The position numbers and the translations under genes are program-made. The notes beneath the pieces are model-generated. The model ran no database searches. It saw only the letters and a program-made list of their open reading frames with translations, and was not told where the DNA came from. Positions 25,903 to 51,886 of a stretch of 64,000 nt of DNA are shown here, piece by piece. Source of the stretch: Pseudomonas lurida (GTDB taxonomy: Bacteria > Pseudomonadota > Gammaproteobacteria > Pseudomonadales > Pseudomonadaceae); assembly GCF_002563895.1 (NCBI RefSeq), contig NZ_PDJB01000001.1, forward strand, positions 1,781,501-1,845,500, given 5' to 3'. Numbering within the stretch: position 1 is the first letter of the stretch; the number at the start of each line of letters is the position of its first letter.

Positions 25903-26003
25903 GCAAGCGGAGCGCGCAGGCGGGAGGATGGAAGCCCACAGGGCCAAGACTCGGCAACATCGAGGCTTGGTTTACGACAGCCGTCCTCGTAGAGGCCCGT
26001 TCG
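25903..26003 (+). repeat. Structured island repeat, copy A
   Basis: First of five copies of a roughly 100-nt element sharing the blocks AAGCGGAGCGC, GATGGAAGCCC, AGGGCC and TTTACGACA. Copy A folds as GCCC-ACA-GGGC, then CCAAG(A)CTCG / CGAG(G)CTTGG with an A opposed to G, then CCTC-GTA-GAGG. It ends 12 bases from the stop codon of the minus-strand phosphatase gene and marks the left limit of the accessory region. The family name is unknown to me. Confidence 0.8.
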
Positions 26004-26014
26004 AACTTGGCTCC

Positions 26015-27166
26015 CTAGAGCGCTTTCAGGAGACGCTCAAGCGTCTGATGTTCCCAAGTGCTGAGCAACGCTATTGGGTCAGTACCAAAGCGATCTCCAG
26101 AGTCAAACGACCAGCGTCGCCCATCAGAGCTGATGCACTCTTCGCAGTAGTCGAGCGTGTCACAGTCGTTGTAGATCGATATCCGCCAACCCTCGACGCT
26201 CACCACGAAATGGCCCGCATAAATCTCATCCCAAGACGGCTGACTGACCTTGGTCATCGACCGTCGCTCGAAGATGACCTCTCGCAATAATTGGCATACC
26301 TTTCTCGCTGAGATCTCCGCCGTAGTGTTTCCGCTAACGCTACCTACTTGGGATGAACGAGCTGCGGTTCTGGCCTCTTTCAGCCTTTGCTCAGCGTACA
26401 TAGCCGGATCATCGTCTGGCGGAGGGTAGCCTGCTGCTGCGAGAGTTTCGGCGCGCTCCTCAATGAGCAGACGTTCTGGATCTCGAGTGACTTGATAAGC
26501 TCTGCCCGGCACGCGCCAAGTGGGGTCCATTCGTGGCTCCCTAGTGGCTGACCGGCTTACTTTCCAACCGGCTTCGTCGGTATCTTTCGAAAGCAGACAC
26601 TCACCACAATTGGGCACGTGGTTTGCGATCTCATACTCACGCCAGTCCACCATAGCTCCGCCGTCAATGCCGAGCGATTTGCGCTCAATTAGCCAGGCTA
26701 CAGCGTTAATGAACTGGCCATGAGAGTACGCAACGATGTCTTGGGCGGGATGCTTTGCAACATACTCCAAGAAAGACTGAGCTCTAGCTATGAAATCTAG
26801 AAATGACTCAGCGCCTTCACCATCCGTGAAACCAGGATCTGCTTTGGCCCAATACGCCTCAACCCATTCTCGTCTTTGAGCGACGGTTGTATTAGCGCAA
26901 CGCTCAGGTTCGAGGTAAGTGAATTCGTGGATGGGCCAGGTTTCAAAAGGGATAAGAGGAAACACCGCTGCGGTCGCCATAGCGGTTGAGTGCGCTCGGG
27001 TGAAAGGCGAGGCAACGATCAGAGCCGGAGCATGGTTGAACGACAATGCCACCAGCTGCGCTTGCTCAACTCCTCTTGGGGTGAGAGTAATGGTCGCGTG
27101 ATCTAAAGTGGCTTCGCCCGCGTTCGCAGCGCTTTCTCCATGTCGTATTAGTCTCACATGCTTCAT
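26015..27166 (-). CDS. Histidine phosphatase family protein with extra C-terminal domain
   Basis: A 383-residue protein. Residues about 1-190 are a phosphoglycerate-mutase-like histidine phosphatase: catalytic LIRHGESAANAGEA, a second Arg in ASPFTRAHSTAMA, the acid region HEFTYLEPERC and the second His in VAYSHGQFINA. Residues about 290-383 form a separate small domain (HFVVSVEGWRISIYNDCDTL, then DYCEECISSDGRRW) of unknown role. It shares the A-B repeat interval with a metallophosphatase. A decayed start of a homologue lies at 45258-45326. The substrate is unknown. Confidence 0.85.
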   Translation of the reverse strand: MKHVRLIRHGESAANAGEATLDHATITLTPRGVEQAQLVALSFNHAPALIVASPFTRAHSTAMATAAVFPLIPFETWPIHEFTYLEPERCANTTVAQRREWVEAYWAKADPGFTDGEGAESFLDFIARAQSFLEYVAKHPAQDIVAYSHGQFINAVAWLIERKSLGIDGGAMVDWREYEIANHVPNCGECLLSKDTDEAGWKVSRSATREPRMDPTWRVPGRAYQVTRDPERLLIEERAETLAAAGYPPPDDDPAMYAEQRLKEARTAARSSQVGSVSGNTTAEISARKVCQLLREVIFERRSMTKVSQPSWDEIYAGHFVVSVEGWRISIYNDCDTLDYCEECISSDGRRWSFDSGDRFGTDPIALLSTWEHQTLERLLKAL

Positions 27167-27234
27167 TTACGAACTACTCGCACAGATTCGGCCATCATTT
27201 CTGTTAGATCCCCAAGGTTACTGGTACTCAACCC

Positions 27235-28236
27235 TCAATCAAGAAGCCTCGACAGCAATCCCTCAATCTGGGTGCCGGCATGCTTGAATTTCAGCTCTTC
27301 GAGCTTAGCTTCCCTTCGTTCGCCGGTGAGCAAGCTGAGTCCGTGAAGCGCATTAAGTAACTTCTGAGACTCACCAATTTCCGAACGCAAAGTCAGCCAG
27401 GTAGTGTTCACTCGACGAGCTAACTCGTCGGCCTCATGGCTCAAGCGTTGTGACTCAATTAGCTTGTTAGCGTTGGTGGTGGCCTTAAGATGACCTAAAG
27501 CCTGCTCAAGTTCGTCCAGTAGCTCGGTAACAGCCTCCGATTGGTCAAGTGACACGGGGCGCCCCTCCACATAAATCGTGTCCGCCTGAACGCAATAGAC
27601 AGCTAGTGGCCCTTCACCCCCTCCGGTGCAATCAAGTGCAAGAACGTTCCCTAGCCGAACAGGCTCTGGAATCCAGGTGTGCCCCGTGCACACACGCCAG
27701 ACCCCTTTGACACCTTCTCGATGGTGCTTTTTGATCCGCTCGCGCCCCCATAGCGCGATCTCTTCTACAGCAGGGATTGATATGTCTCGAGTGAACTCGA
27801 CCCATGACATCCCGGCAGGGACATCAGCATGAACAACGCCAACCAAACCGCGAGGGGACTCGATTTCTATGACTGTGGGAAGGCTCTCGAGCTTCCCAAT
27901 GACCATCTCTTTCGATTCGTCAGCGATGGTCGACCACCAGCCTGCACCATGAGCTACATAACGAGCGCTGGGGTCTTCCCTATAAGCGTTGATAAGCATC
28001 TGCTCATGGTTACCTTGAACGGTGAAGAACCACGGCTCACCAAGAAGCTTCAGACCGTCGAGGACTCCAGGCCCGCGATCTATGAGATCACCCACCCCAA
28101 TGACTCGGTCGATAGCTTTGTCGAAACCTAGCTTCAACAATCCTTTATGAAGATCAATCGTCTTGAAATGGATGTCACCGACGACAAAGTCGCGACCGAC
28201 CTCGTTCCGAGGAAGCCTTAGGACTTTCTGACTCAT
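27235..28236 (-). CDS. Metallophosphatase (calcineurin-like) with C-terminal helical extension
   Basis: A 333-residue protein. Residues about 1-215 carry the binuclear-metal phosphoesterase motifs: GDIHFK (usually GDIHG), GVGDLIDRGP, QGNHEQM, and late His residues in VVHADVP and CTGHTW. This is the PrpA/serine-threonine phosphatase or ApaH-like type. Residues 225-333 are an added, probably helical segment with many Glu and Leu. It lies 68 bases upstream of the histidine phosphatase, same strand; together they form the whole content between repeats A and B. Confidence 0.87.
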   Translation of the reverse strand: MSQKVLRLPRNEVGRDFVVGDIHFKTIDLHKGLLKLGFDKAIDRVIGVGDLIDRGPGVLDGLKLLGEPWFFTVQGNHEQMLINAYREDPSARYVAHGAGWWSTIADESKEMVIGKLESLPTVIEIESPRGLVGVVHADVPAGMSWVEFTRDISIPAVEEIALWGRERIKKHHREGVKGVWRVCTGHTWIPEPVRLGNVLALDCTGGGEGPLAVYCVQADTIYVEGRPVSLDQSEAVTELLDELEQALGHLKATTNANKLIESQRLSHEADELARRVNTTWLTLRSEIGESQKLLNALHGLSLLTGERREAKLEELKFKHAGTQIEGLLSRLLD

Positions 28237-28399
28237 GCGCGGGGTTCCTTCCTCAATGGCGAGCTACCAGGTGGCCAAACCCGTATTGTCCACCCAGCAA
28301 TTGCACCTTCCAACAGAAATCTGGACGGACAGGATGACTACACTCTATTGCGCAGGGCTGAGGTATACCGAATTTCTTCCGTCGATGAAAATAACCAGA

Positions 28400-28514
28400 G
28401 CAAGCGGAGCGCGCAGGCCAGTAAGGCCGGAGATGCGAGGATGGAAGCCCAGAGGGCCATGACTTGGCGTCAGCCATGGCATGGTTTACGACAACCGACC
28501 CGATAGGGCGCGCC
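28400..28514 (+). repeat. Structured island repeat, copy B
   Basis: Same element as copy A, with an extra hairpin (GGCC-AGTAA-GGCC). It has GCCC-AGA-GGGC, a CCATG(A)C / G(G)CATGG stem with the same A-G opposition, and CCC-GATA-GGG. It lies 164 bases upstream of the metallophosphatase start and 49 bases past the stop of the next minus-strand gene. Confidence 0.8.
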
Positions 28515-28562
28515 ATAAACCGCGATTTGCTTAGATTGCAGGATTGCTGATGTTCTGCAGGC

Positions 28563-29030
28563 TTATGTATTCCAATATTTTTGGACTGTGCTTCTGGCAA
28601 TGCCGAGCTTTTCAGCGATTGTTTTCCTGTCGAAACCTTGCGCTCTCAAGGCTCGAATGTATTCCGCATTAAGCGGTTGCTTAGGCTTTCCCTGGGAGCG
28701 CTTGATGAGCTTTCCATCACTGAATTGCTCCTCTACTAACTGCCACCCTCCCGACATCTCAAACTCCCTGATTCGCAACGCAGTACGTTGCAAAGCCTCG
28801 GATGGAAGTTCGTCACCCTGCGCAGCAATGGCGAGAGTGACCATAGTCAAAAGGTCGAGGCCTAAGTAGTCAGCGATCTCGTCCAGTTTCTCCAGCGTCG
28901 GCGTCGTCCTGGCCTGTTCAAGCTTCCCTACATTCGTTCTATGCGTTGCTCCCGCCAGATCCTCGTAACTCAACCCTTGGTGTGCACGGGCTCCGCGTAA
29001 TGCCCCCGCCAGCGCTTCCTTCAGATTCAT
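28563..29030 (-). CDS. XRE-type HTH protein with second C-terminal HTH
   Basis: About 155 residues from the ATG at 29030. The N-terminal HTH_XRE domain reads HQGLSYEDLAGATHRTNVGK, and the C-terminus ends in a resolvase-type HTH, LRAQGFDRKTIAEKLGIARS followed by TVQKYW. No catalytic resolvase domain is present. Probably a DNA-binding regulator of this island. The 304 bases before the next gene (29031-29334) show no gene. Confidence 0.8.
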   Translation of the reverse strand: MNLKEALAGALRGARAHQGLSYEDLAGATHRTNVGKLEQARTTPTLEKLDEIADYLGLDLLTMVTLAIAAQGDELPSEALQRTALRIREFEMSGGWQLVEEQFSDGKLIKRSQGKPKQPLNAEYIRALRAQGFDRKTIAEKLGIARSTVQKYWNT

Positions 29031-29334
29031 GAGTCGGATCCCCAAAAGCGAGGATAGAGCCACGGCAAGCGTGTTTCGATAAACAGACTATAGTGATATT
29101 ATCGTGACATATGGTTTGCCAAGCAGTCGTTTGATCATAACGGCGGGATGTTTGGATTGGTGATGGATTGGTCATGAGAGCAGCACCTAAGACACGGTCA
29201 AGGGCGTCTCGATGGGAGACGCGCTCATCAAGTCCTCCGTTTATGGCCTGCGTAAGCCCGCCTGCATTCGTCACTGAGCGACGTCTTGGCAAAAACCAGA
29301 TCCACTTTTTAAGCGAAGTCAGGGATAGTGAGTG

Positions 29335-29889
29335 ATGAAGTTCGATTGCGTGAAAGTTTCAGGAAAAGTTGACTACGTTCGATCTGTTGATCGAATGAAC
29401 GGCGGACATAAAGCTAAAGTCAGCATTGACGGTGCAGTTATCCCAAATTTGCAAGTGTCGAATAAGCTTTACGAAGAGTTAGAAGCCGGCGAGAGTGTAA
29501 CTTTGTATGGGCTTTTTAAAAGAAGTAATGACAAGGAAAAAAACACAGGCATCTTGTACGGCCTAGCGAAGCAGAACGGCGAGAAATCATTTGCTACCCA
29601 GTATAGATATCAAGTCCCGCTTTTTCTGATGGTCACTGCGGTCATCGCATTTTGCTTAACTTTCGTCGCCGGCTGGATAGCTTCGATATTTCCAGTGCTT
29701 TTCTTATTTGGAGAAAATTCAGATTATATGTATACCACTACGGTATTTGCAGTAATTGAGTCGAGCTTGGTTGCCGCCTTTTTCCTGTGGAGGGCATGGG
29801 TGATGTTTAACGCTACGTCTGATCCTGAAGCTTGGGAAACTACCGAAGCTGCAGTGCTATCGAGTCGCTTCAGTAAGCTCCATAAGTAA
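29335..29889 (+). CDS. Hypothetical membrane protein
   Basis: 184 residues. The soluble N-terminal half (about 1-95) looks like a small beta-rich domain (GKVDYVRSVDRMNGGHKAKV, then GESVTLYGLFKRS). Two hydrophobic segments follow (VPLFLMVTAVIAFCLTFVAG and TTVFAVIESSLVAAFFLW). Low GC compared with the neighbours. I do not recognise the family; the arrangement suggests an inner-membrane protein with a cytoplasmic OB-like head. Confidence 0.6.
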   Translation: MKFDCVKVSGKVDYVRSVDRMNGGHKAKVSIDGAVIPNLQVSNKLYEELEAGESVTLYGLFKRSNDKEKNTGILYGLAKQNGEKSFATQYRYQVPLFLMVTAVIAFCLTFVAGWIASIFPVLFLFGENSDYMYTTTVFAVIESSLVAAFFLWRAWVMFNATSDPEAWETTEAAVLSSRFSKLHK

Positions 29890-29902
29890 TAATCCTGTAC
29901 GT

Positions 29903-29972
29903 AGGGCACGGTTACACCTGCCCCGGCTCCGGTCTCGCTGCGCCAGCCTTCCGCCGCAGGCGGCACGCCATA
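29903..29972 (-). repeat. Possible partial relative of the structured repeat (minus strand)
   Basis: Read on the minus strand it shows GCCGC-CT-GCGGC, then GGAAG and GCTG-GCG-CAGC, then GAGACC, in the same order as the GGAAG / GCCC-N3-GGGC / GAGACC blocks of copies A-E. The 5' AAGCGGAGCGC block is absent. It lies between the membrane protein and the 133-residue protein. Relationship is suggestive only. Confidence 0.35.
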
Positions 29973-30011
29973 GCTACTGCCCGATATCAAATCAACAAGG
30001 ATGCGGCTGAA

Positions 30012-30413
30012 ATGACCCACGATGAACTCCGTCAGCTTGAGGGCGCTAGGCGAAGGACTCTGTGGGCACTTGCCAGCCTCCGTCCTGGTGATCCCAAAGC
30101 ATCCTACCTCCTTGGCATCCTCGATGATCTTGACGACCAAGAGCGAAACGACACCCCCTGTAGCGATAAGCCACGCGAACTCATTGAGGTTCGTAACTCT
30201 GTCTCGATGATGCGTCATAACTCCGGAATCGACATCATCTTGGAGCGGACTATTCCGCAGCCCTGGCGAGAACGCTTTCTGCAAGCGAGCATCGGATCAA
30301 CCAGGATTCCTGAGGGGCCCTACGCCGCAGACTGGGATAAATTTCTGACTGAATGGGAGCGTGAGATGCAGCATCTGAAAAATCACCGAGCTGCACAGGC
30401 TGCTAACAGTTAG
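30012..30413 (+). CDS. Hypothetical protein, paralogue of the 48257 gene
   Basis: 133 residues, no known domain. The C-terminal half is nearly the same as in the gene at 48257: IPQPWRERFLQASIGSTR is identical in both, followed by GPYAxDWxKFL and a W-x2-EMxHL tail. The N-terminal half shares RR(K/R)xLWxLxxLxPGDP and LDDxxDQER. It is followed after 86 bases by a DEDDh exonuclease; the other copy follows one. A conserved partnership with the exonuclease is inferred. Confidence 0.78.
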   Translation: MTHDELRQLEGARRRTLWALASLRPGDPKASYLLGILDDLDDQERNDTPCSDKPRELIEVRNSVSMMRHNSGIDIILERTIPQPWRERFLQASIGSTRIPEGPYAADWDKFLTEWEREMQHLKNHRAAQAANS

Positions 30414-30499
30414 AACTGCTGGTTCGAGCGATGGCGGCGCAAACACATAAGCAGTCGGTGTAGCCGCTGAAGATCGCAGCCTCAAACAGGAGCAGCAAG

Positions 30500-30964
30500 G
30501 TGGAACGGCCTTCTTTTTTTATTGATTTTGAAGCTTCTGGAATAGCTCCTGACAGCTATCCGATTGAAGTTGCCGTCGTGTCGAGTGAGGCCACCTTCAG
30601 CTCGCTTATCAAGCCCGTCCGGTACTGGACGCACTGGTCGTTTGACGCGCAAGACATGCACGGTCTCACTCAAGATCAGTTACATCAAGAAGGTGAGACC
30701 CCAGTCGCTATGGCGACAAATATGAACAGGCTGTTTTCAGGGCAAGTGCTTTGCAGTGATTCACCTCAGGACGGTTTTTGGCTCGATGTGCTCTACGAGG
30801 CAGCAGATCTGATACCTACCTTCGAGTTGAAGCCTTTGGAGGTTTTTGTGGGCCGGGAGGCTGCCAGTGAAATCTACCGGCGACTGGCGACAGCCAGGCA
30901 CCACCGAGCTCTAAATGACGCAACTGCTCTGATGAACGCCTGCCGTGCTTTTTTCGAAGCTTGA
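30500..30964 (+). CDS. DEDDh-type 3'-5' exonuclease-like protein
   Basis: 154 residues with an RNase H-like exonuclease pattern: FIDFEASG (Asp-x-Glu), CSDSPQDGFWLD (Asp), and HHRALNDATAL (His and Asp, Exo III epsilon). All four acidic positions and the His appear to be present. Single-domain, short for the family. Its neighbour at 30012 has a paralogue beside a similar exonuclease at 47761. Confidence 0.8.
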   Translation: MERPSFFIDFEASGIAPDSYPIEVAVVSSEATFSSLIKPVRYWTHWSFDAQDMHGLTQDQLHQEGETPVAMATNMNRLFSGQVLCSDSPQDGFWLDVLYEAADLIPTFELKPLEVFVGREAASEIYRRLATARHHRALNDATALMNACRAFFEA

Positions 30965-30975
30965 ACTACTTTGCG

Positions 30976-30997
30976 GGACGGTTATCTGAAACCGTCC
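30976..30997 (+). terminator. Hairpin after the exonuclease gene
   Basis: An 8-bp stem GGACGGTT / AACCGTCC with a 6-base loop, 12 bases after the stop codon. There is no clear T run, so termination strength is uncertain. Confidence 0.55.
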
Positions 30998-31094
30998 GGC
31001 CAAGTTATCTATTCGTAGATCCAGAGGTGACACACGTGCTCGATATTCTCGAGCGAGACATCCTGCCCGCCCGTGGACGGCTTTAGCTCATTAA

Positions 31095-32048
31095 TCAATC
31101 GGCTGGTGAGCCTGATGCCAGATTTGCCTGCGCCCACTCCTGAGCGGTCGTGACTAGAATCGCCTGCTGCGCGTTGAAGGTACCCGCTTTAGGCCAGGCC
31201 ACGCCGCTGCCCTGGGCGAATACAGCGCGGTACTTCTTGATGTGATGCGTTGGGTCTTTCTCCAACTCTTGGAGCAAGTACGGAACAGTCCACACGTTAC
31301 GTTTGAATGGACGGCCCAGTACGCGTTCGAGAAGGCTTGCAACCTCTTCATACGTCACTGTGTCTCCTGAGAGATAAACGATTTCATTGCTAAAGCGCGG
31401 TTCGAAAAAAACGATTTCCGCTGTCAATGCACCGATGTCGTCTGGAGTCGTGAGTGTCACGCTGGTCTCGAGGCTACCAAGCGCGTTTACTGTATCGTTT
31501 TCGAAATCAACCACCTCGAATACTGGCTCGAACAGAAAGCTCGTGAACATACCAGTCGAGATGATTACCCATTCAGTTTTATCCTGGGCACGAAGCAATT
31601 CGCGAACATCAAGCTGAGCATCGAACAGATCCTGAGGACTGCCCCGACCGATTACTTCGAAGTCGACACCAAACTGCCAAGGGAAGTAGCGCTTCACACC
31701 GGACTTGAGCGCAGCGGTAGCCAGCTTCATCGGAGTTTCCCGGCCTGCGACCATGCCCGCACAGCCTATTACGGTATCGAAGCGTGCGAATACCTCAGCC
31801 AGTTGATCGATAGAGTCGTTCACAAGGTCTGCGGCCACCATCTGGATGCCTAGGCCACGAAGCCCATCGATTTCGGCCTTTTTCTCAGGCACTTCAGTGT
31901 TGATGGTCGAGTCCCTGAGAAGGACGCTGATTGTGGAACCGGGCGCGCGCGCTGCCACGCTCGCGAGATTGCGCAAGACCGGGAGCCCAAGCTCACCGGC
32001 GCCTAGAACCAGAATGGATTGCGGGGAAAATTGGGTCACTTCGGTCAT
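31095..32048 (-). CDS. NmrA-like NAD(P)-binding reductase
   Basis: About 317 residues from the ATG at 32048, which has AGGAG 7 bases before it. An atypical SDR / isoflavone-reductase-like protein: Rossmann motif ILVLGAGELGLPVLRNLA, then TVIGCAGMVAGRE and KRYFPWQFGVDFEVIG, the usual region replacing the SDR active site. NmrA-like proteins reduce aromatic or enone compounds or act as redox sensors. Divergent from an HxlR regulator 78 bases away, a common regulator-target pair. Confidence 0.87.
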   Translation of the reverse strand: MTEVTQFSPQSILVLGAGELGLPVLRNLASVAARAPGSTISVLLRDSTINTEVPEKKAEIDGLRGLGIQMVAADLVNDSIDQLAEVFARFDTVIGCAGMVAGRETPMKLATAALKSGVKRYFPWQFGVDFEVIGRGSPQDLFDAQLDVRELLRAQDKTEWVIISTGMFTSFLFEPVFEVVDFENDTVNALGSLETSVTLTTPDDIGALTAEIVFFEPRFSNEIVYLSGDTVTYEEVASLLERVLGRPFKRNVWTVPYLLQELEKDPTHHIKKYRAVFAQGSGVAWPKAGTFNAQQAILVTTAQEWAQANLASGSPAD

Positions 32049-32126
32049 GATTTCTCCTGAGACCTGTTGCCTGTAAGATGAACCAATGCTTGCACGATTA
32101 GGCAACGCTCGTAAGAAGGCACACCT

Positions 32127-32588
32127 GTGATACCAGACAATGAAATGACCGATCAGGAGGCTCTTAGTCAGGCAGAGACAATCTGCCGAACGTTGAGAGA
32201 AGATGATGATGGTGTCAGGCGGGAAGTGCTTGCTCACGCAGGCAGCCGCTGGTCGTTGGGCATCCTGCACGCCTTGGGGGTGTACGGCACCATGCGTCAT
32301 GCCGAAATAAAAAGGCAGATGACTGGTGTAACTCAGCGGATGTTGACCAAGACGCTACGCTCCATGGAGCGAGATGGCCTAGTGGTTCGCCGCGAGTTCG
32401 GTGAGGTTCCGCCACGTGTCGAGTATGAGCTGACTCCGCTCGGTATGGGGCTGTTGGTTCGTATGTCCCCTATCTGGACTTGGGTAGTCGAGAACGTCGA
32501 GGATTTCCGCAAGGCCCGGCAGATTTTCGACAGCCAGGTTGATAAAAAACCTGAATGGCAAATACCCACGTCGATTCCATTAGATTGA
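32127..32588 (+). CDS. HxlR-family transcriptional regulator
   Basis: 153 residues with a winged HTH of the HxlR type: GSRWSLGILHALGVYGTMRH, GVTQRMLTKTLRSMERDGLV and RVEYELTPLGMGLL. The GTG start at 32127 has GAAGG upstream; ATG at 32145 is the alternative. HxlR proteins sense electrophiles such as quinones or aldehydes. Likely controls the divergent NmrA-like gene. Confidence 0.9.
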   Translation: MIPDNEMTDQEALSQAETICRTLREDDDGVRREVLAHAGSRWSLGILHALGVYGTMRHAEIKRQMTGVTQRMLTKTLRSMERDGLVVRREFGEVPPRVEYELTPLGMGLLVRMSPIWTWVVENVEDFRKARQIFDSQVDKKPEWQIPTSIPLD

Positions 32589-32629
32589 GAACCGCCTCGA
32601 TAATCATTGCTCACACCGCTCGAATGGGC

Positions 32630-32812
32630 CTGTGACCATTGGCAAAGTCGTTGCTGTTCAAGCTTTCTCGCCACCTGCGCTCGCAGGCTCGCCAACCGTC
32701 CCTGAGATATTCACACAGATTCAGCCCATCGAAGCGCGCCGACTGGATAAGACCCATGATCACGGTCGGCCCGGTAGCTGCCACGCAGGGAGCCGGCGAC
32801 AGCCAATTGGAT
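32630..32812 (-). mobile_element. Second IS66 TnpC C-terminal remnant
   Basis: Read on the minus strand, with frameshifts: NWL, AGSLRGS, VIMGLIQSARFDG, EYLRD, then RLASLRAQVARKLEQQRLC ending in QW. This parallels the end of the IS66 remnant at 21155 (NWLFAGSLRSGKRAAA, IMTLIQSARLNG, YLKD, ending SW). Two or more frameshifts show advanced decay. It lies between two convergent genes. Confidence 0.65.
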
Positions 32813-32823
32813 TGTTCAAGCGC

Positions 32824-33309
32824 CTAGCTGAAGGTTTGCGTACACAGCCACGATTCCACTTTTTGCCATCGGCCAACCTCGGAAAGCTTTGACCTTCCTG
32901 TATCTAGAATCTCAAGCAGTCGCTCTCTCTCCGCACGAGAGGGAAACCAATCATCGATCTCGACGTTGCAGTGGATAGACTCACTCAATGCCCATCTAAC
33001 GATCATGTCCGCAGCGGCTCGGTAGTGATCGGCCATGAACAGACGTCGGCCCTCCACAGACCATCCACGCTTTGCTAGCTCATCGGTCACGTCGATGATG
33101 CCAAGGTCACCAAAGTAGGCTGCGGTGTCAGGATAATGGATGCCTGCCAATGACACTTTGGTCTCGCCGGATTCCCGATCAAAATAGGAAAGGAAATGCC
33201 ACCCACCCGTGGTGCTTCCTGGATGGGGGAAATTGATGGCGGCTTTGCCTGTTATGTAGTGCTGGTGCGAGACGCGTTTGAGGTCAAAGTCGAAGAGCGG
33301 CCTGTTCAT
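32824..33309 (-). CDS. Hypothetical protein
   Basis: 161 residues, no recognised domain. Starts MNRPLFDFDLKRVSHQHYI, and has HFLSYFDRESGETKVSLAGI and DWFPSRAERERLLEILDTGR. Looks globular and soluble. The first roughly 20 codons have a decayed homologue at 42515-42576, so the family was once duplicated within the island. The 192 bases upstream to 33501 contain no gene but hold a short hairpin (CAGGCT-GGA-AGCCTG) that may be a diverged structured repeat. Confidence 0.6.
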   Translation of the reverse strand: MNRPLFDFDLKRVSHQHYITGKAAINFPHPGSTTGGWHFLSYFDRESGETKVSLAGIHYPDTAAYFGDLGIIDVTDELAKRGWSVEGRRLFMADHYRAAADMIVRWALSESIHCNVEIDDWFPSRAERERLLEILDTGRSKLSEVGRWQKVESWLCTQTFS

Positions 33310-33501
33310 GCGTTTCGACCCACTTGTTTATGTAAGCATCTTATAGATCTCAGTATTGACGGAATGGCGCTACCGCCTTTCCGAGCTCCGAGGATGTAGA
33401 GGCAGGCTGGAAGCCTGACGATACCTACTAAGGGCCGAAGCCTGCGGGTGAGCTGATCAAAGACAAAGTTGCTGGCGGCGCCCTTCGTCTAATTAGTTCA
33501 T

Positions 33502-41900: not shown

Positions 41901-41923
41901 TATCATTATTTCAGGAAAGAAGT

Positions 41924-42576: not shown

Positions 42577-42674
42577 TAGCGACCTCAGACATTGGAGCCC
42601 CTAGAGTCGTCCGAAGCCACAAAGCCTCACAACGCGAGGCTGAGCGGAAAAAAGCACAACTACGCACACATCCA

Positions 42675-43391: not shown

Positions 43392-43406
43392 TTGCTGTAC
43401 CAATAT

Positions 43407-44480: not shown

Positions 44481-44813
44481 GTCACAGTCCTTTGCAGGGT
44501 TCGGTAGAGCAGGGAGACCGGAAATATGGCACGACGAGAACCAGGCGTCCAATAGGCAGCCAGCCTGATGCGAGCGCATCACTGTCGTAGATCAACAGGA
44601 TGGGGGAAGCACAGAACGTTCAGCATTTCGTCCACTGGGGCGTTGCGGTGTAAGGCTTTTTTAAGACTTCGGCATTAAACTCGTTATGGTGCGGCTCACA
44701 AAAATTGATGACAATCTCGCACTCCTTCGAAAGCGCTGTCTCCGAAATGGTGGAGTGCGGTTCACCGACAAACTTACCTTATTCTGTCGATGCTTCGCGG
44801 GATGAGCGAGCAT

Positions 44814-45062
44814 TTAACGAACGTTGGAATTTTTGTAGTGAGCGATAATGTTGTTGAGATGATAATCAGATTTTATTTTCAGCAGTTGGTCTTCGATGTT
44901 GGTGTCAATTATTTTATTGATAATTGGGTGTGTGTTAAAGTTCTGGCGAATGAAAATTAGATAACTCGAATCCAGCTCTTCAAGAATCTTGACCAAGGTC
45001 GGAAGATTGTGAAGTTCTGGTGCCTCTCCGAGAAGGCAGCTCTTGAAGTTGTGAGTTTGCAT
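44814..45062 (-). CDS. Hypothetical small protein
   Basis: 82 residues, AGAGG 5 bases before the ATG. Mostly helical, AT-rich (LPTLVKILEELDSSYLIFIR, then DTNIEDQLLKIKSDYHLNN). No family recognised. It sits between rnlA and the STAND gene on the rnlA strand. The 333 bases between it and rnlA show no gene. Confidence 0.5.
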   Translation of the reverse strand: MQTHNFKSCLLGEAPELHNLPTLVKILEELDSSYLIFIRQNFNTHPIINKIIDTNIEDQLLKIKSDYHLNNIIAHYKNSNVR

Positions 45063-45257
45063 GTCGGCCTCTAAGTTAATAAATAAAGTTGGCCGAATTA
45101 GTAGCGTCTTGAGGCAACAGTCAGCGTCACTTGTCGCTACTGTTCGGCTGAATTGTTGAAGCGGTTTTCAGCGGTTTCATTAATTGCTTAGGCCTGAGTA
45201 ATTTGGTAAGCCTAGAGCTCGGTATAGCCTATTTTTTTCACCTTGACAAATTCCATT

Positions 45258-45326
45258 GTGCTCCAGGCTGGCATCGCCGACGTTGGCAGCGCTTTCTTCA
45301 TGGCGGATCAGCCTGATATGTCTCAT
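45258..45326 (-). pseudogene. Relic start of a histidine phosphatase gene
   Basis: Minus strand ATG at 45326 reads MRHIRLIRHEESAANVGDAS followed by LEH. It parallels MKHVRLIRHGESAANAGEAT / LDH at the start of the intact gene at 27166. The catalytic RHGE has become RHEE, and similarity ends after about 23 codons, showing a truncated duplicate. It underlies the false upstream extension of the STAND gene. Confidence 0.75.
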
Positions 45327-45459
45327 TGACCAAATACCCTCCAGTTTTGTCCCGCCTGTACGTGACGCAATGCGGCTTCTGCTAACACAGCCCCGGCATT
45401 TTCACAGTTCCGCTATGATGGCTTTCTGTCCGACCTCTAGATTTTGCTGCAAGGATCGA

Positions 45460-47724
45460 ATGCTCATGACGCCCCCAAAATACGACCTTCATCTCTTAGG
45501 TTGGCATGGTTTTCAGCAACTTTGCATGGCAGTAGCCTCAACAGTTTTGGGCCAAACAGTCGAGACGTTCCTTGAAGGAAATGACGGAGGCCGCGATGGT
45601 GGGTTCAAGGGAACGTGGTCTCCTCAGCCTAACGAGTTGTATGCAGGCGAATTCGTCATCCAGTGCAAGTTCACATCTCGCCGTGATCACAATCTCACTC
45701 TATCTGATGTGACTGGTGAGCTTGAAAAGGTGCGCAGACTCGTCGCCAAGGGAAAGTGTGATGTCTATGTCCTGATGACAAACGCAGGCTGGACAGGGGA
45801 TAGCAATCTCAAAATACGGTTGGCGTTTGAGCATGCTGGGGCCGAGCACGTGCTTTTGCTGGGCTCTACCTGGATCTGCGAGAAGATCCAGCTGAACAGT
45901 GATCTGCGCATGAACGTGCCCCGACTCTATGGTCTTGGCGACCTTAGCCAGATCTTGGATGGGAGACGTTACAAGCAGACGAAGGCGTTGCTGACGGAGC
46001 TTCCCGACCTTTCAAAGCTAGTGGTGACGGGCACCTATCGCAAAGCGCTTCAAGCCCTTCAGCAGCATGGCTTTGTTCTTTTGGTTGGAGAACCCGCAGC
46101 AGGTAAGACAACGATTGCATCACTCATGGCCATGTGTGCGATGGATAAATGGGGGAGCCTAGTATTGAAGCTGGAGAGGCCTGAGCAGATAAGAGATCAC
46201 TGGAATACTGAAGAAGCATCGCAGTTCGTATGGGTTGATGACGCCTTCGGGGCCATGCAGTACGAAGCAGACTTGGTGATGGAGTGGAACCGGATTCTTC
46301 CCGCTCTCACGACCATGATCCGAGGTGGGCATCGGATAGTTCTGACCAGCCGTGACTACATTTACAACAGCGCACGACGTGATCTCAAGAAAACAGCATT
46401 TCCTCTAATGGAAGAGAGCCAAGTTGTCATCGACGTGAAAGAGCTGACCTCCCAGGAAAGGTCAGAAATCCTCTACAACCATGTGAAGCTTGGAAACCAA
46501 CCACAGCGGGTTCGGACGGTCTTGAAGGAGTTTCTTCCTGCAGTGGCAGCTCACAGTAGGTTCGCTCCCGAGACTGCTCGGCGCTTGGGGAGCGTTGAAT
46601 TCACCAAAGCGCTAAAGATTGACCAGAAAAATATTGACGAATTTGTCGCGAAGCAGGAGCGATGGCTCGTCGAGACGATGCAGGGAATGGATGACGAGAG
46701 CCAGGCCGCACTTGCTCTTCTCTACATGAAACATGGAGCAATCGAAAGCCCGGTGAGTCTGTCTAGTGGCGAGATGCAGACAATTGAGAGGCTGGGCGGT
46801 AGCCAGCCCGGGTGTATCCGAGCCCTAGAGAGCCTCCGGGGTAGTTTTCTTCAGATGGCAGATACGGCTGATGGGCGTTTCTGGCGATATAAGCACCCGA
46901 CGATTGGGGATGCGTTTGCGTTGATACTCGCCCAGAGTCCTGAGCATCTGCAGATCTTTGTGGATGGAACACCGATTGAGCGGTTGATGGAACTGGTGAC
47001 ATGCGGCAACGCAGGGGTTCAAAACGCTACGATTTTGCCTTCAAGCATGTTCGCAGAAATCGCGAACCGGTGCTGTGGATACGTTGAATGCGAGGGCGAC
47101 ATGGAGCGGACGAGGCGGGGAAGGCTGTATTCTTTTCTGCAGCGCAGGACAAATGACGTGTTCTTGGACATCTACTTGAAAACTGATGGAAAGCTGCTTT
47201 CCAGCTTGGTTCGTGACTTCGCGATAAACTTGTTCACGAGGTCGTCTGATCTAGCTCTCCGTCTGCTACGGCAAGGGCTTTTAGCTGAGTCAGCGAGAGA
47301 AGCGATTTCCACCAAGATTCGGGACTTTGTCTTTGATCATGATGAGCTCGGGCACATCTACGATAACGAGATGCATGAGTTCTTCACTAGCCAGGAGCGT
47401 GAAGACTTCTACAGCGATGTACAGAAACATGTGCTGCCTGACCTGGACAGGGTTCGCAAGTCCCTGCAGGAATCGTATTGCTACGAAAACGATCCTGATA
47501 ACCACTTTTCTGATTTTATTGATGAGCTTGAGGGTATTTACGCTGCCTTTCCGGAATGGCCCGGTATCGAGGATGTGGTCGATACCCAACGGCGTCGAGT
47601 TGACGATTGGGTGAGTGAGGTCTCGCAAGAGCGGTATGAGGAACCAGCAGTCGGACGGAGCGATCTGATTCGGCCCTCTGCAACGGGGGGAGGACGTAAC
47701 ATCTTTGACGATGTAGATCTCTAA
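45460..47724 (+). CDS. Nuclease-nSTAND NTPase (Avs-like defence protein)
   Basis: 754 residues from ATG at 45460 (AAGG 6 bases upstream). N-terminal nuclease-like domain: EGNDGGRDGGFKG (Asp46) and FVIQCKFTS (Gln-x-Lys 68-70), an Mrr-type PD-(D/E)xK pattern. A P-loop follows near residue 210 (LLVGEPAAGKTTIASLMA) with Walker B FVWVDDAFG and sensor-like TSRDYIYNSARRDLK, as in novel STAND NTPases (nSTAND3). The C-terminal roughly 350 residues are helical and probably sense a phage component. Such proteins oligomerise and cut DNA on infection. The specific trigger is unknown. Confidence 0.85.
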   Translation: MLMTPPKYDLHLLGWHGFQQLCMAVASTVLGQTVETFLEGNDGGRDGGFKGTWSPQPNELYAGEFVIQCKFTSRRDHNLTLSDVTGELEKVRRLVAKGKCDVYVLMTNAGWTGDSNLKIRLAFEHAGAEHVLLLGSTWICEKIQLNSDLRMNVPRLYGLGDLSQILDGRRYKQTKALLTELPDLSKLVVTGTYRKALQALQQHGFVLLVGEPAAGKTTIASLMAMCAMDKWGSLVLKLERPEQIRDHWNTEEASQFVWVDDAFGAMQYEADLVMEWNRILPALTTMIRGGHRIVLTSRDYIYNSARRDLKKTAFPLMEESQVVIDVKELTSQERSEILYNHVKLGNQPQRVRTVLKEFLPAVAAHSRFAPETARRLGSVEFTKALKIDQKNIDEFVAKQERWLVETMQGMDDESQAALALLYMKHGAIESPVSLSSGEMQTIERLGGSQPGCIRALESLRGSFLQMADTADGRFWRYKHPTIGDAFALILAQSPEHLQIFVDGTPIERLMELVTCGNAGVQNATILPSSMFAEIANRCCGYVECEGDMERTRRGRLYSFLQRRTNDVFLDIYLKTDGKLLSSLVRDFAINLFTRSSDLALRLLRQGLLAESAREAISTKIRDFVFDHDELGHIYDNEMHEFFTSQEREDFYSDVQKHVLPDLDRVRKSLQESYCYENDPDNHFSDFIDELEGIYAAFPEWPGIEDVVDTQRRRVDDWVSEVSQERYEEPAVGRSDLIRPSATGGGRNIFDDVDL

Positions 47725-47760
47725 ACTAGGTGAAAAAGGGTAAGGGCTACGGAGGAGAGG

Positions 47761-48264
47761 ATGAAGCTATTTTTGGACTGTGAGTTCACTCGGCTCAACC
47801 GAGATACGAAGTTGATTTCGCTGGCACTCGTGTCCGAAGCCGGGCACGAATACTACGTCGAGCTCACAGACACGTACGTCACTCAGGACTGCAGCGACTT
47901 CGTGATTCAAAATGTCCTGCCACAGCTTAATCTGCCTGAACATGGGCAACCCTTGGTCGAAGCTCAAACCTCACTGCTCGCTTTCTTGAGCAACCTTGAA
48001 GGCCCGCTCGAGATTTGCTCGGACGCGCCGGATTGGGACTGGGATCTCTTCTGCCAATTGGCCTACGTAAATCACCGTTGGCCAGCTAACGTTGCCAATC
48101 GTCCAACCAACCTGATCCTGCTATTCAGGCATCTCGAAGCGGAGGATATCGGCGACGTGACGCTCCCGGAACTTCCACATCACGCGCTGCTGGATGCTCG
48201 TCTCTTAGCCGAACTTTATCGTCGACTGACTGCCGGTTCCAATCGAGGCACTGAACATGGCTGA
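47761..48264 (+). CDS. DEDDh 3'-5' exonuclease-like protein (DUF5051 type)
   Basis: 167 residues: LFLDCEFT (Asp-x-Glu), CSDAPDWDWDLF (Asp) and HHALLDARLLAELYRRL (His, Asp), so the four-acid exonuclease site is complete. GGAG precedes the ATG. It overlaps the start of the next gene by 8 bases, and that gene is a paralogue of the one at 30012. The same two gene families occur at 30012-30964 in the reverse order. Confidence 0.83.
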   Translation: MKLFLDCEFTRLNRDTKLISLALVSEAGHEYYVELTDTYVTQDCSDFVIQNVLPQLNLPEHGQPLVEAQTSLLAFLSNLEGPLEICSDAPDWDWDLFCQLAYVNHRWPANVANRPTNLILLFRHLEAEDIGDVTLPELPHHALLDARLLAELYRRLTAGSNRGTEHG

Positions 48265-48658
48265 TGATCTTCGTACGCGTGAGTCTGTTAGGCGCAAAGC
48301 CCTCTGGACACTTTCGCACCTGGTGCCGGGCGACCCACAAGCTGCCACTATTTTGAATGTGCTTGACGACATTGAAGACCAAGAGCGCGTCGACTTAAAC
48401 CAGAGTCATCCACATCTCGATATTGATGCTGTCCGCAAAGCAGTCCTGATTGAGCGCCACAGTTCCGGTATCAACATCGTTGACGAGGCCAGTATTCCGC
48501 AGCCGTGGCGTGAGCGTTTTCTACAAGCGAGCATCGGCTCGACCCGCCTGATCGATGGCCCATACGCCCATGATTGGGAAAAATTTCTGGCTCAATGGCA
48601 GGCTGAGATGAAGCACTTGGATGCTCACATGTCTGCAAGGCGAGCGCGTCAGCGTTAG
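48257..48658 (+). CDS. Hypothetical protein, paralogue of the 30012 gene
   Basis: 133 residues, the same length as the gene at 30012 and identical over IPQPWRERFLQASIGSTR. Translationally coupled (8-base overlap) to the exonuclease upstream. No known domain; rich in charged residues, with a predicted helical N-terminus. A partner or regulator of the exonuclease is the natural inference. Confidence 0.8.
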   Translation: MADDLRTRESVRRKALWTLSHLVPGDPQAATILNVLDDIEDQERVDLNQSHPHLDIDAVRKAVLIERHSSGINIVDEASIPQPWRERFLQASIGSTRLIDGPYAHDWEKFLAQWQAEMKHLDAHMSARRARQR

Positions 48659-48735
48659 GCGTCGGAGGGCACCTTCGATTGTCTACTTTGGATAGTGCTG
48701 ACTATACTGGCAACACTAAATATCTGAGGTGTTAC

Positions 48736-49104
48736 ATGTCCCGTCTCGCTGAATTCCGCGCTCTTGAACAACAGCTTGCTGCCCAATTGGCAGAGCTTGA
48801 AACGCTGAAAAACGATGATGGTCTGAAGCGTGAGATTGAATTCGAAACGAAACTTCGTGATCTGCTGGGTGAGTATGGTTACAGCTTGCGCAACATTGTC
48901 GCGATTCTCGATCCGCATTCTTCAAACCGCCGTTCTCCAACAGCGGCTGAAACCAAGGGCACCCGTAAAGCTCGCGCTGTGAAGGTTTACAAAAATCCTC
49001 ACTCGGGCGAAGTTGTCGAGACGAAGGGCGGCAACCACAAGGTTCTGAAGGAGTGGAAAGCTGAATACGGTTCCGACACCGTCGAGAGCTGGCTGGCTCA
49101 GTAA
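48736..49104 (+). CDS. MvaT-family H-NS-like xenogeneic silencer
   Basis: 122 residues from ATG at 48736 (GAGGT 5 bases before). N-terminal oligomerising coiled coil (MSRLAEFRALEQQLAAQLAE) and C-terminal DNA-binding domain with KVYKNPHSGEVVETKGGNHK and LKEWKAEYGSDTVESW; the GGNHK segment corresponds to the AT-pincer/minor-groove element. MvaT proteins silence AT-rich acquired DNA in Pseudomonas. An island-borne copy could modulate the host silencers or repress the island itself. A strong terminator follows. Confidence 0.92.
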   Translation: MSRLAEFRALEQQLAAQLAELETLKNDDGLKREIEFETKLRDLLGEYGYSLRNIVAILDPHSSNRRSPTAAETKGTRKARAVKVYKNPHSGEVVETKGGNHKVLKEWKAEYGSDTVESWLAQ

Positions 49105-49124
49105 ATTCGGTTGAGTACAAATAG

Positions 49125-49147
49125 AGGGCCCTGCGGGGCCCTTCTTT
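49125..49147 (+). terminator. Rho-independent terminator after the MvaT gene
   Basis: Stem AGGGCCC / GGGCCCT with a 4-base loop followed by TCTTT, 20 bases after the stop codon. Nothing recognisable was seen in the 242 bases after it. Confidence 0.88.
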
Positions 49148-49389
49148 ATGAGTGATAGGTACTGTCGTTCAGGAGCGCTTGAGCTGGTTAGCAACGGCAG
49201 CAATATTCGTCACGCCAATGCGGATGGCCTGGCGATAAAGTTAGTCATCTACTAATTTTCGTGCGTGGTACGGGGTGTTATGCCCGTATCTAGACGTCTG
49301 GATAGACACCGTCATGCCGTCTATTCTCTAGGAAGCAAGGAGGCGGACTAAATGCAGTCTGCGGCCAATTAGAGCGAAAGGAGCAACCA

Positions 49390-49917
49390 GTGAAGGTTCC
49401 ATCAAGTAGAAATCCATCCATCTCCACTTCGAAAAATCCGTTCATAGCAACCTCGCTGAACCCTACGGTGGCTACGTCGCTGAATCCAAACGTAGCGACG
49501 AGCAAAAACCCGTTCGTGGCCACCAGCCTGAATCCTCATGTTGCTACTAGCAACAACCCGCTGATCGCTACGAGTCTTAATTACAAGGTTGCCTCAAGCC
49601 TCAATCCAAGGGTGTCGTCACGTCTTAATCCTAAGGTCAGCAGCTCGTTGAACCCGAACGTATCGTCCAACATTGAAGGGTTGTATCTATGGAATCTCGA
49701 CCTTGTGCAGGATGGGTTCACCGCCCGAGCAAACGACCGTGTTGTGCTGATGTACGACGTCAATGCCGAGTTCAATGGGGTGCTGATCTCGGCAAAGGCG
49801 AACCATTGGAATCAGTTTGACCTCGATAACCAGTGGGTTGGGTATTGGGTGCATGCTAGGGAAAACACGTGGCTGCGTTACACGTTGCGCAATCAGTGGT
49901 ACGGCTTTACCACCTGA
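49390..49917 (+). CDS. Octapeptide-repeat protein of unknown function
   Basis: 175 residues, GTG start with AAAGGAG 6 bases before. Residues 8-95 are eleven uninterrupted 8-residue repeats with consensus NP-x-(V/I)-(A/S)-(T/S)-S-L, for example NPTVATSL, NPHVATSN, NPKVSSSL. The C-terminal roughly 80 residues are a different aromatic-rich domain (LYLWNLDLVQDGFTARANDR, then QWVGYWVHARENTWLRYTL). No signal peptide or membrane segment. The strict register suggests a small solenoid or stacked-turn fold. Proteins with similar Asn-Pro repeats are known only as hypotheticals. Confidence 0.75.
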   Translation: MKVPSSRNPSISTSKNPFIATSLNPTVATSLNPNVATSKNPFVATSLNPHVATSNNPLIATSLNYKVASSLNPRVSSRLNPKVSSSLNPNVSSNIEGLYLWNLDLVQDGFTARANDRVVLMYDVNAEFNGVLISAKANHWNQFDLDNQWVGYWVHARENTWLRYTLRNQWYGFTT

Positions 49918-50017
49918 ATACCGATTCACAAGTCAGTGGGGGAGGAGGGAAGCATCTAGCGTCGCTTCCTCATCCATGACAAAGCTAAGATTTACCCGTT
50001 GATTTATGCGCTCGCAT

Positions 50018-50112
50018 GCAAGCGGAGCGCACGGGCACGGACACGAGGATGAAACCGCGTAGCGCCGAAACTTTAACCCGGTTCACGACAGCCGCTCCCG
50101 AAGGGTACGCAA
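50018..50112 (+). repeat. Structured island repeat, copy C
   Basis: Same element, the shortest copy. Blocks AAGCGGAGCGC, GAGGATG, GCCGAAAC and TTCACGACAGCCGCTCCC are present; hairpins CGC-GTA-GCG and CCC-GAA-GGG replace the GCCC-N3-GGGC and terminal stems of the other copies. It lies 100 bases after the repeat-protein gene. Confidence 0.75.
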
Positions 50113-50316
50113 CGACCACAATGTACGTGGAGAGTCCGATGGGCATAACAGACGATGACGACACAGTGTACTGCAACGTTCAAATGCCCCTGGCTCAGGG
50201 CACACTGAATTGGGGGCTATGGCGTCAGTGAATAGACCTCCATTGAGCACCATTTTTAAATTTCTGAACCCGTGCGAATGGGCTGTGGCTGCAAGCAGGT
50301 TGCCTGCTCACTACCG

Positions 50317-50508
50317 TTATTTTTGAACCAGGTCTTTGTATAACTCTCGCGCCGCAAGAATCTGATCCCTGAGCTCTTCAGGATCAATCCTCATGCCACC
50401 ACGAGGCGTGACCTGAAGCGTCTTTAAGCGGTTCGCAGCCTTGATGAATTCCCGTTCCTCTGCCTGAACCCAGGCGGGCCGCTTGTCTTTCCAAAATAGC
50501 CAACCCAT
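50317..50508 (-). CDS. Hypothetical small protein
   Basis: 63 residues: MGWLFWKDKRPAWVQAEERE, then MRIDPEELRDQILAARELYK. GAGG lies 9 bases before the ATG. Soluble, helical, charged. No family recognised. It is the only gene between repeats C and D. Confidence 0.55.
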   Translation of the reverse strand: MGWLFWKDKRPAWVQAEEREFIKAANRLKTLQVTPRGGMRIDPEELRDQILAARELYKDLVQK

Positions 50509-50595
50509 TTGCCCGGCCTCATCTTTGATCGGATGCTCAGCAGTATGTGGGAGTGATAGCTAATGTCCAAGCAAGAAGGTGAGTCGGATCGCTCT

Positions 50596-50712
50596 GCAAG
50601 CGGAGCGCGCAGACCATGATGGTCGAAGAGCGTAAGGATGGAAGCCCGAAGGGCCGAGACCCAGCGTAGCGGGGCTCGGTTTACGACAGCCGCTCCCGAG
50701 GGGATACGCCCG
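50596..50712 (+). repeat. Structured island repeat, copy D
   Basis: Best-formed copy: GCG-GAG-CGC, the variable hairpin GACCA-TGA-TGGTC, GCCC-GAA-GGGC, the long stem CCGAG(A)CCC / GGG(G)CTCGG, and TCCC-GAG-GGGA after TTTACGACAGCCGC. It ends 19 bases from the stop of the DUF262 gene on the minus strand and 88 bases from the start of the 50317-50508 gene. Confidence 0.82.
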
Positions 50713-50730
50713 AGCGCCTTGATTAAAAGG

Positions 50731-51333
50731 TTACCGAACAGCTCGTTGATCAAATGACCGAGGCACTACGCCCAGCGCGCAAAGATCGTATGTCCTGCGC
50801 AATGCCACCTCGTCACCAGACGGCACCCTGACATGGGTAAAGATCGTCGACAGAAAGCGTTTCCTTTCGCTGTTGCCGAGCTCAGACCAGATCCGTGGCT
50901 GCCCTTGTGCATCAGGAATCGCGAGACGGTCGAGGAAATACTCTTCCAGGCTGTGCAGACGTTGTTGGCCATCAATCAAAATTTCACTGTTTTCGGCCAA
51001 TGCCCTGCTACCGCTCCCTGATTCGTACCAGTCATTCGTGAGGTAGCTCCCCAGATCCCCGCCTGACCATACTGCGGAGATAAAGCGAGACTTCTGTCCG
51101 ATGTTCCATTCCAGCCCGCGCGACCAGGTTGGCACGGGCATGCCCATAACGAATCGCGCTGCCCATGGACAATGCTCATGAGTGGAGGAGGGATCTACTA
51201 GATACTTTTCCCAGTGGCCCACTAAGACCTCGATGGGACAATGACTGACGGTCGTGGGCAGAAGACGCTGCGGCATATGGATGTGTAGGTCTGATGTTCC
51301 GCCGTCGGCGTAACGTTTAAAAAGCGAGGTCAT
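50731..51333 (-). CDS. DUF262-domain protein
   Basis: 200 residues from ATG at 51333 (AGGAA 5 bases before). It holds the ParB/sulfiredoxin-like DUF262 core with the hallmark EILIDGQQRLHSLEEYFLDR, preceded by SGGDLGSYLTNDWYE. It lacks the C-terminal nuclease (DUF1524, HNH) found in GmrSD-type restriction enzymes. Short DUF262 proteins occur in phage-defence and phage genomes. It overlaps the upstream gene by ATGA. Confidence 0.8.
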   Translation of the reverse strand: MTSLFKRYADGGTSDLHIHMPQRLLPTTVSHCPIEVLVGHWEKYLVDPSSTHEHCPWAARFVMGMPVPTWSRGLEWNIGQKSRFISAVWSGGDLGSYLTNDWYESGSGSRALAENSEILIDGQQRLHSLEEYFLDRLAIPDAQGQPRIWSELGNSERKRFLSTIFTHVRVPSGDEVALRRTYDLCALGVVPRSFDQRAVR

Positions 51334-51641
51334 AGTTTTCCTGGGCAGCTCAGGTTGGTCGAAGTATTCGGGTAAGTACGAGTGCATCGCCATGCATCCA
51401 CCGTTGCAATGATCAGCAGATCCCGATCTGTGGAAATATCGATCTGCCCGCTATCGGCCAAAGCATGTGCATAGCCCTCGGAATAGGCTGCCGCCTTGTT
51501 GAATTCGGATGTGCAGGCTGAGGATTCGAGGTAGCCGATCAGCCGCTCCCATGTCCGCCGTTGGCGGTTGCCGATAATCGTGTAGGGGAACGATAAGGCG
51601 CTGTTCAGGCGCTGTGCGAAGTCATGTGTAGAGAAGGTCAA
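51330..51641 (-). CDS. Hypothetical protein coupled to the DUF262 gene
   Basis: 103 residues: MTFSTHDFAQRLNSALSFPY, RRTWERLIGYLESSACTSEF, then LLIIATVDAWRCTRTY. Soluble, mostly helical, no known domain. Its stop overlaps the DUF262 start by ATGA, so the two are translationally coupled and form the content of the D-E interval. Confidence 0.65.
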   Translation of the reverse strand: MTFSTHDFAQRLNSALSFPYTIIGNRQRRTWERLIGYLESSACTSEFNKAAAYSEGYAHALADSGQIDISTDRDLLIIATVDAWRCTRTYPNTSTNLSCPGKL

Positions 51642-51784
51642 AGCCGTCGCTCAAAAAGGGTACTTACTCATCACAAACGGTTGGTTTCGGAAAACCTTGA
51701 GCCTGAAGCGATTTTTTTTTAAGAGATACAGATTTGCCCAAGCACGGCAGCTGGGACTGATGCGTTGGAGGACTGTCACATCAG

Positions 51785-51886
51785 GCAAGCGGAGCACGCA
51801 GGCACGAAGATGGAAGCCCGGAGGGGCAAGATAGCCATTGAAAATGGTTGGCTTGATTCACGACAGCTGGCCCGAAGGGCGTGCCA
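51785..51886 (+). repeat. Structured island repeat, copy E
   Basis: Same element: AAGCGGAGCACGC, GATGGAAGCCC, GCCC-GGA-GGGGC, then the longest stem, CAAG(A)TAGCCATT / AATGGTTG(G)CTTG, again with the A-G opposition and otherwise paired by wobbles, then GCCC-GAA-GGGC after TTCACGACAGCTG. It starts 144 bases before the 51641 gene start. The remaining bases to 52130 show no gene. Confidence 0.82.

Follow-up and report, generated by a model that had tools for sequence, protein, structure and literature searches.

A 64,000-nucleotide stretch of the Pseudomonas lurida genome (contig NZ_PDJB01000001.1, forward-strand positions 1,781,501–1,845,500; hereafter the window) carries five copies of a structured element whose fold is maintained by compensatory base changes. 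The element is best read as single-stranded DNA, probably of the strand that conjugative and mobilizable elements transfer (the T-strand), rather than as RNA. A function in the single-stranded T-strand is highly probable. Single-strand initiation is the likeliest job of the element, the mechanism itself being put forward tentatively, at slightly less than even weight. Taken together, a DNA fold that acts on the T-strand of conjugative or mobilizable elements and recruits single-strand initiation is, on balance, the preferred reading. A preliminary description of the window had read the copies as an unassigned fold, conserved as RNA or as single-strand DNA and confined to accessory DNA, and this overall view is supported. 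The copies lie at the positions that it gave, on the + strand, and share all of the sequence blocks that it named:

25903..26003, + strand: copy A, without hairpin 1 (hp1); model E 3.7e-21
28400..28514, + strand: copy B, with hp1; model E 8.2e-23
29941..29969, + strand: 3′ fragment of a further copy (the last hairpin with the 3′ strand of the closing helix P0), seen by alignment with relatives
50018..50112, + strand: copy C, the most divergent, P0 poor; model E 6.8e-10
50596..50712, + strand: copy D, with hp1; model E 3.0e-23
51785..51886, + strand: copy E, with a perfect P0, GGCACG/CGTGCC; model E 1.9e-15

A whole copy occupies the site of the 29941–29969 remnant in six relatives. The end of copy A is about 12 bp from the stop codon of a − strand open reading frame (ORF; 26015–27166). 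The covariance model (R1) finds seven copies in the genome, five in the window and two outside it; the latter are on the − strand, in a second, integrase-bearing island, and lie 16 and 26 kb beyond the left end of the window. The earlier statement that all copies have one orientation thus holds inside the window (five of five on the + strand) and fails genome-wide.

The conserved architecture spans ∼115 nt. An invariant 5′ block, GCAAGCGGAGCGCGCAG, is drawn unpaired; hp1 is optional; and hairpin 2 (hp2), stem P3 and hairpin 4 (hp4) form a junction closed by P0. Further conserved blocks are AGGATGGAAG and TTYACGACAG. Hairpin 2, the long stem with its A opposite G, the last hairpin and the extra hairpin of copies B and D are all found as previously outlined, and the A opposite G recurs in 65 of 77 copies of the wider set. 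That account of the structure was real but incomplete, as it missed both P0 and the partial sixth copy at 29941–29969. Helix P0, which was identified by reading the copies, closes the core by pairing the 6 nt 5′ of AGGATGG with the 6 nt 3′ of the last hairpin. Within the window it takes the form CGGG/CCCG in A, GCGTA/TACGC in D and GGCACG/CGTGCC in E, while copy C, as read by eye, forms it poorly. Variants include GGCTTG/CAAGCC, GGCATG/CATGCC, GGCACG/CGTGCC and GGTGGG/CCCACC. All six positions pair in 29 of 80 parsed copies, compared with 11.7 expected when partners are re-dealt; these 80 derive from 189 sequences matched in the fetched loci, 170 of which passed a stricter pattern, leaving 82 that were non-redundant.

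Covariation was assessed in an alignment of 54 sequences (53 non-redundant copies and copy C), and the compensatory change claimed from the window copies is upheld there. Double-change cells number 105, compared with 29.4 in shuffled alignments (0/500 shuffles) and at most 31 in slid controls; changes on both sides occur in 20 of 25 pairs (10.1 shuffled), and 87.9% of cells are paired (79.4% shuffled, at most 48.4% in slid controls). Folding of single copies gives unexceptional energies and does not recover the consensus, the best DNA z score being −2.42 (copy B), and copy C folds worse than most of its shuffles. RNAalifold on a MAFFT alignment also does not recover the consensus. The support for the structure is comparative, not energetic.

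The strand on which the element lies was compared with that of linked relaxase genes. Relaxases were sought near copies in 74 of the 135 Pseudomonas genomes with matches and in the present genome. In ten of the 11 replicons with a relaxase match within 40 kb of a listed element, the relaxase is on the opposite strand; these ten hold 27 listed elements and carry either PF03432 (genomes G000, G067, G083, G207 and G306) or PF08751 (G023, G059, G105, G349 and G387), and no MOBH relaxase lies within 40 kb of a listed element among the replicons searched. The elements are likewise opposite to the relaxase gene in all nine fetched plasmids with an annotated relaxase in the stretch (pWW0, CP102430, R46, R388, pYLMB50b, pAOVO01, pKPC-SMH, the Xanthomonas albilineans plasmid plasmII and pKC081), and the P. 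hydrolytica plasmid would be a tenth case if the LPD7-domain gene beside mobC is its relaxase. Most of the nearby leading genes on the fetched plasmids (ssb, DUF932 and methyltransferase) are on the strand of the relaxase. All 25 model matches (E < 0.05) in 11 fetched plasmid loci lie on a single strand per record, nine of these loci having been oriented by one of their own matches. Passages of one earlier study place stbABC at the leading region of IncW, IncN, IncP-9 and other plasmids (PMC3098194). On F and the fetched plasmids the element sits in the leading region, on what is inferred to be the transferred strand; for the window island this placement follows only from the putative origin of transfer (oriT) listed below.

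On the F plasmid the element neighbours a known single-strand start site. The model matches F at 63469–63594 (E 3.8e-12) and 58081–58205 (E 6.7e-12), in both cases opposite in strand to the leading genes, and these matches adjoin the two Frpo regions. According to sections of the report of Couturier et al., Frpo1 precedes ygeA/ygeB, Frpo2 precedes ssb, and Frpo deletions abolish detectable expression of the tested fusions (PMC9849209). The segment common to F and ColIb-P9 is taken here to be the ∼328-nt Frpo/ssi. Positions 183–526 of the Frpo2 region align with ColIb-P9 twice, once ahead of its ssb and once elsewhere, presumably at its ssi (single-strand initiation) sites. The model match in the Frpo2 region covers positions ∼495–619, with the GATGG core starting at 534, so that the element has no homology to the shared segment beyond an overlap of its 5′ tail. 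The Pseudomonas and Betaproteobacterial plasmids compared match the Frpo2 region no earlier than base 463 and no further than base 618, apart from matches at 2–70, which coincide with the ssb gene; in the window, copy D matches the equivalent part of the Frpo1 region; and on Serratia pKC081 a Frpo-like segment and the element stand side by side. Because the part shared with ColIb-P9 ends before the core, the element is a separable neighbour of Frpo, a leading-region module. It has in common with Frpo1/Frpo2 of F and ssi of ColIb-P9 a location on the T-strand in the leading region, a folded single strand and several copies per plasmid; it differs in lacking −10/−35 boxes (a linear scan, which is a weak test) and, on the Pseudomonas and Betaproteobacterial plasmids and in the window, in lacking a Frpo segment detectable by blast.

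Single-stranded DNA is favoured over RNA because there is no wobble preference, the loops are of a DNA type and no promoter is conserved. Over the whole structure G-T pairs occupy 39 cells and A-C mismatches 45. The hp2 loops closed by C-G are GNA triloops in 102 of 156 cases, and the 30 tetraloops comprise 23 GNYA, four GNRA and no UNCG; in DNA, loops of the GNA and cGNNAg kinds are stable. The upstream flank is not conserved (10-nt means of 0.02–0.08 bits), and σ70-like pairs upstream of the element are not enriched (20/81 compared with 23.95 shuffled). A + strand transcript acting as a structured regulatory RNA is therefore an improbable alternative: covariation and invariant blocks are equally compatible with RNA, and runs of four T within 60 nt downstream occur in 19 of 81 copies, twice the shuffled value of 9.45, but G-U is not preferred, the loops are GNYA rather than GNRA, no upstream promoter is conserved or enriched and there is no Rfam match. 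The Rfam check suggested earlier, C4 antisense RNA included, returned no covariance-model match at the gathering level over the window and none up to E = 5 around the copies. The element is not wholly unrelated to known things, as it adjoins the Frpo regions of the F plasmid.

As to what a T-strand fold would do, an initiation site fits best because of the strand, the several copies per replicon, the frequent placement directly behind genes, which requires no downstream gene, and the adjacency to Frpo. A crude ORF scan of the 189 sequences places the left neighbour on the + strand in 91 and on the − strand in 78, so that often no gene lies downstream of the element. This counts against the main rival, an unlikely but serious one. 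There the element would be a conserved upstream part of a Frpo-type single-strand promoter and would position RNA polymerase, or activate it, for the leading genes to the 5′ side of the element on the T-strand. The Frpo-like segments adjoining the element on F and pKC081 agree with such a role, as do 20 hand-picked plasmid gaps of 332–662 nt that separate an element from the leading gene that follows (such as ssb, DUF932 or methyltransferase) and fold strongly on the T-strand with z scores of −2.2 to −7.8 that the mononucleotide shuffles may inflate. A −35/−10 pair with at most three mismatches (shuffled means 3.8–4.7) is present in 13 of the 20 gaps. Against such a role, promoter boxes inside the element are found in 1/81 copies on either strand compared with 6.45 shuffled, a weak test for folded promoters since the same type of scan misses the real Frpo gaps of F (five mismatches), and the window gaps at B and E (163 and 143 nt) are unstructured (z 0.3 and 0.1). 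The same ORF scan places the right neighbour on the − strand in 141 sequences and on the + strand in 35, such that the element often stands directly behind the stop codon of an opposite-strand gene; on four IncP-9-type plasmids nine of 12 copies end within ∼60 bp of such a stop. Since attC sites are likewise placed behind cassette genes, this arrangement could also indicate an attC-like single-strand recombination site bounding gene cassettes. Such a role is the least probable of those weighed here, as the flanks of the copies are kept in relatives while gene insertions and deletions occur elsewhere (a small sample of 13 loci), two half-copies look like ordinary deletions, one of them at a short repeat, and no dedicated recombinase was identified. 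Two further candidates are rejected: an insertion of the miniature inverted-repeat transposable element type, given the deletion remnant at 29941–29969 in the window, and a chromosomal lagging-strand site, given that both orientations are present within 80 kb in the present genome.

Several observations weigh against a T-strand initiation site. In the P3 outer stem alone the 80-copy count gives 16 G-T to three A-C, unlike the total. The matches in R388 are weak (E 0.038), and bases 1–50000 of ColIb-P9 contain no model match up to E = 10. The hexamer AAGCGG, which occurs in all five window copies and which we take to be a feature of primosome sites, is absent from the stretch of phiX174 examined (2250–2500), so that the comparison does not support this lead. 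In G052 (plasmid pSDM007) a weak PF03432 match lies on the same strand as the elements ∼35 kb away, and the main relaxase, a MOBH protein 111 kb away, is also on that strand. In many element-bearing genomes no member of the three relaxase families was seen close to the copies. Among the listed matches, 17 contigs have copies in both orientations within ∼110 kb (G000, G050, G055, G067, G122, G136, G153, G157, G171, G234, two in G235, G245, G309, G322, G375 and G386), with opposite-strand copies only 2.7 kb apart in G136 and 4.8 kb apart in G309. The − copies lie to the left of the + copies in all of these except G136, as if pointing apart from a centre. Only G000 and G067 among them have a relaxase match within 40 kb of a copy, and copies at 63 kb (G067) and 69–79 kb (present genome) from the linked relaxase share its strand. 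In the present genome, the both-strand case looked at, the two groups belong to two separate islands.

With initiation as the preferred function, the T-strand coated with SSB in the recipient would fold at the element, and the folded element could recruit host machinery with which complementary-strand synthesis would start. Where a Frpo-like region follows, early transcription of leading genes might be coupled to this step; in the window island the five stand-alone copies would serve initiation on incoming defence cargo. A broader proposal, to which we assign an even chance, is that the fold, maintained by covariation in the manner of structured RNAs, serves conjugation in Gamma- and Betaproteobacteria as a general means of establishment. 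It would act on the incoming strand without depending on the Frpo promoter, would be common to MOBF and MOBP elements (F, R46, pWW0, the defence islands and, through its weak matches, R388), and would recruit the machinery of either replication start or early expression. The element may thus help incoming DNA to become established in a new cell. The priming of the incoming strand and the switching on of its first genes are known in detail for few plasmids, and passages of the RP4 work state that single-strand promoters for zygotically induced genes were not identified (PMC7314908). The element provides a handle defined by sequence and structure in Pseudomonas plasmids, IncN plasmids, F and mobilizable islands, which makes deletion tests straightforward, and a strongly covarying DNA fold is of interest as a structure in itself.

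Other known systems share some of these features. CUP repeats of the IncN leading region, reportedly described by Delver and Belogurov in 1997, are like the element a conserved sequence upstream of leading-region operons, and one R46 copy of the element (23761–23890; E 0.0068 to 0.014) is upstream of ccgAI. The comparison with CUPs is by their description only, which in excerpts of two reports is that of ArdK-regulated promoter regions (PMC5371602, PMC6289460). The phiX174-type primosome assembly sites recognized by PriA are also structured single-stranded DNA and start complementary-strand synthesis. The attC sites of integrons are folded single DNA strands behind genes, but no cassette exchange is seen in the loci compared here. 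No paper listed by the literature searches describes the fold in its title or abstract opening; the fold may already have been described as part of ssi or CUP.

The search of Pseudomonas genomes with a covariance model, proposed in the preliminary description, finds the element in 135 of 398 genomes (E ≤ 0.001) under strict filters and with few candidates scored per genome. Model R1 matches 15 of 119 genomes of a family sample, in eight of 19 genera, several of the matches being weak. An exact-pattern scan of GTDB contigs yields 116 stretches, and the 80 listed comprise 77 from Pseudomonas, two from Burkholderia sp. and one from Paraburkholderia. A blast search with copy B returns 60 plasmid records, 51 of them typed conjugative, and no phage records. 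A copy of a distant class (L026) occurs in 669 plasmid records at 1121 places, with 574 records typed conjugative and hosts including Escherichia, Pseudomonas, Klebsiella, Xanthomonas and Aeromonas. R388 (L231) has two weak matches in near-identical stretches, 20041–20155 and 24047–24161 (E 0.019 or 0.038), one of them upstream of a zincin-like metallopeptidase gene. In NZ_CP070507.1 (28902–50448) an IncP-9-type leading block with elements resides on a MOBH-typed plasmid beside mer and resistance units, which suggests that leading regions move between plasmid types. A sequence listed as viral (L156, IMGVR_UViG_3300031372_000451) contains the element and DNA 88% identical to the NikA–oriT stretch of the window island; it could represent a mobilizable island instead of a viral genome.

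The window island is a case of the element alone, without a Frpo segment detectable by blast, on a defence-carrying mobilizable island. Its features are:

25443..55501: mobilizable island, approximate extent from the ends of homology in relatives
33502–35676: HamB (Hachiman), island cargo
35669–37507: HamA (Hachiman), island cargo; best PADLOC E 7.5e-222
39872–40375: ThsB (Thoeris), island cargo
40437–41900: ThsA (Thoeris), island cargo; best PADLOC E 1e-155
41897–42475: second ThsB (Thoeris), island cargo
52131..53285, − strand: relaxase PF03432, MobA/VirD2-like, on the strand opposite to the elements
53282..53575, − strand: NikA-like relaxosome accessory protein PF21983 (profile match)
53653..53677, + strand: putative oriT, inverted repeat TTGTCT..AGACACAA followed by CTGGCT
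53933–55129, − strand: 398-aa ORF beside oriT at the right island end, without Pfam or NCBIfam matches

No direct repeat of at least 10 bp was found across the island ends (25443/55501), and no integrase was recognized among the part of the island ORFs scanned. The relaxase has a weak NCBIfam match to TraI/MobA(P), below the cut-off. The inverted repeat and CTGGCT are probably the nic motif of the island, judging from the resemblance to the ColE1-type nic CTGGCTTA given in part of one report (PMC5703827). An oriT-like motif is present in five of 69 genomes (six MOBF genomes being excluded from the scan), each time on the strand of the elements, and these five are the genomes whose linked PF03432 frame is 395–412 aa. 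If the island circularizes at about 30 kb, copies A and B would enter approximately 2.3 and 4.8 kb after nic and copies C–E near the end. An RnlA-like RNase LS toxin and an nSTAND3 NTPase, the latter with a PADLOC PDC-S73 match, are encoded at 43407–44582 and 45256–47724 of the window. The second island, just to the left of the window (L199 5669–6811, 8539–9036; genome 1755776, 1765567), contains a phage-type integrase and the two − strand copies, and its regulator, which combines HTH_3 and a resolvase-type helix-turn-helix, has the same make-up as that at 28563–29063 of the window.

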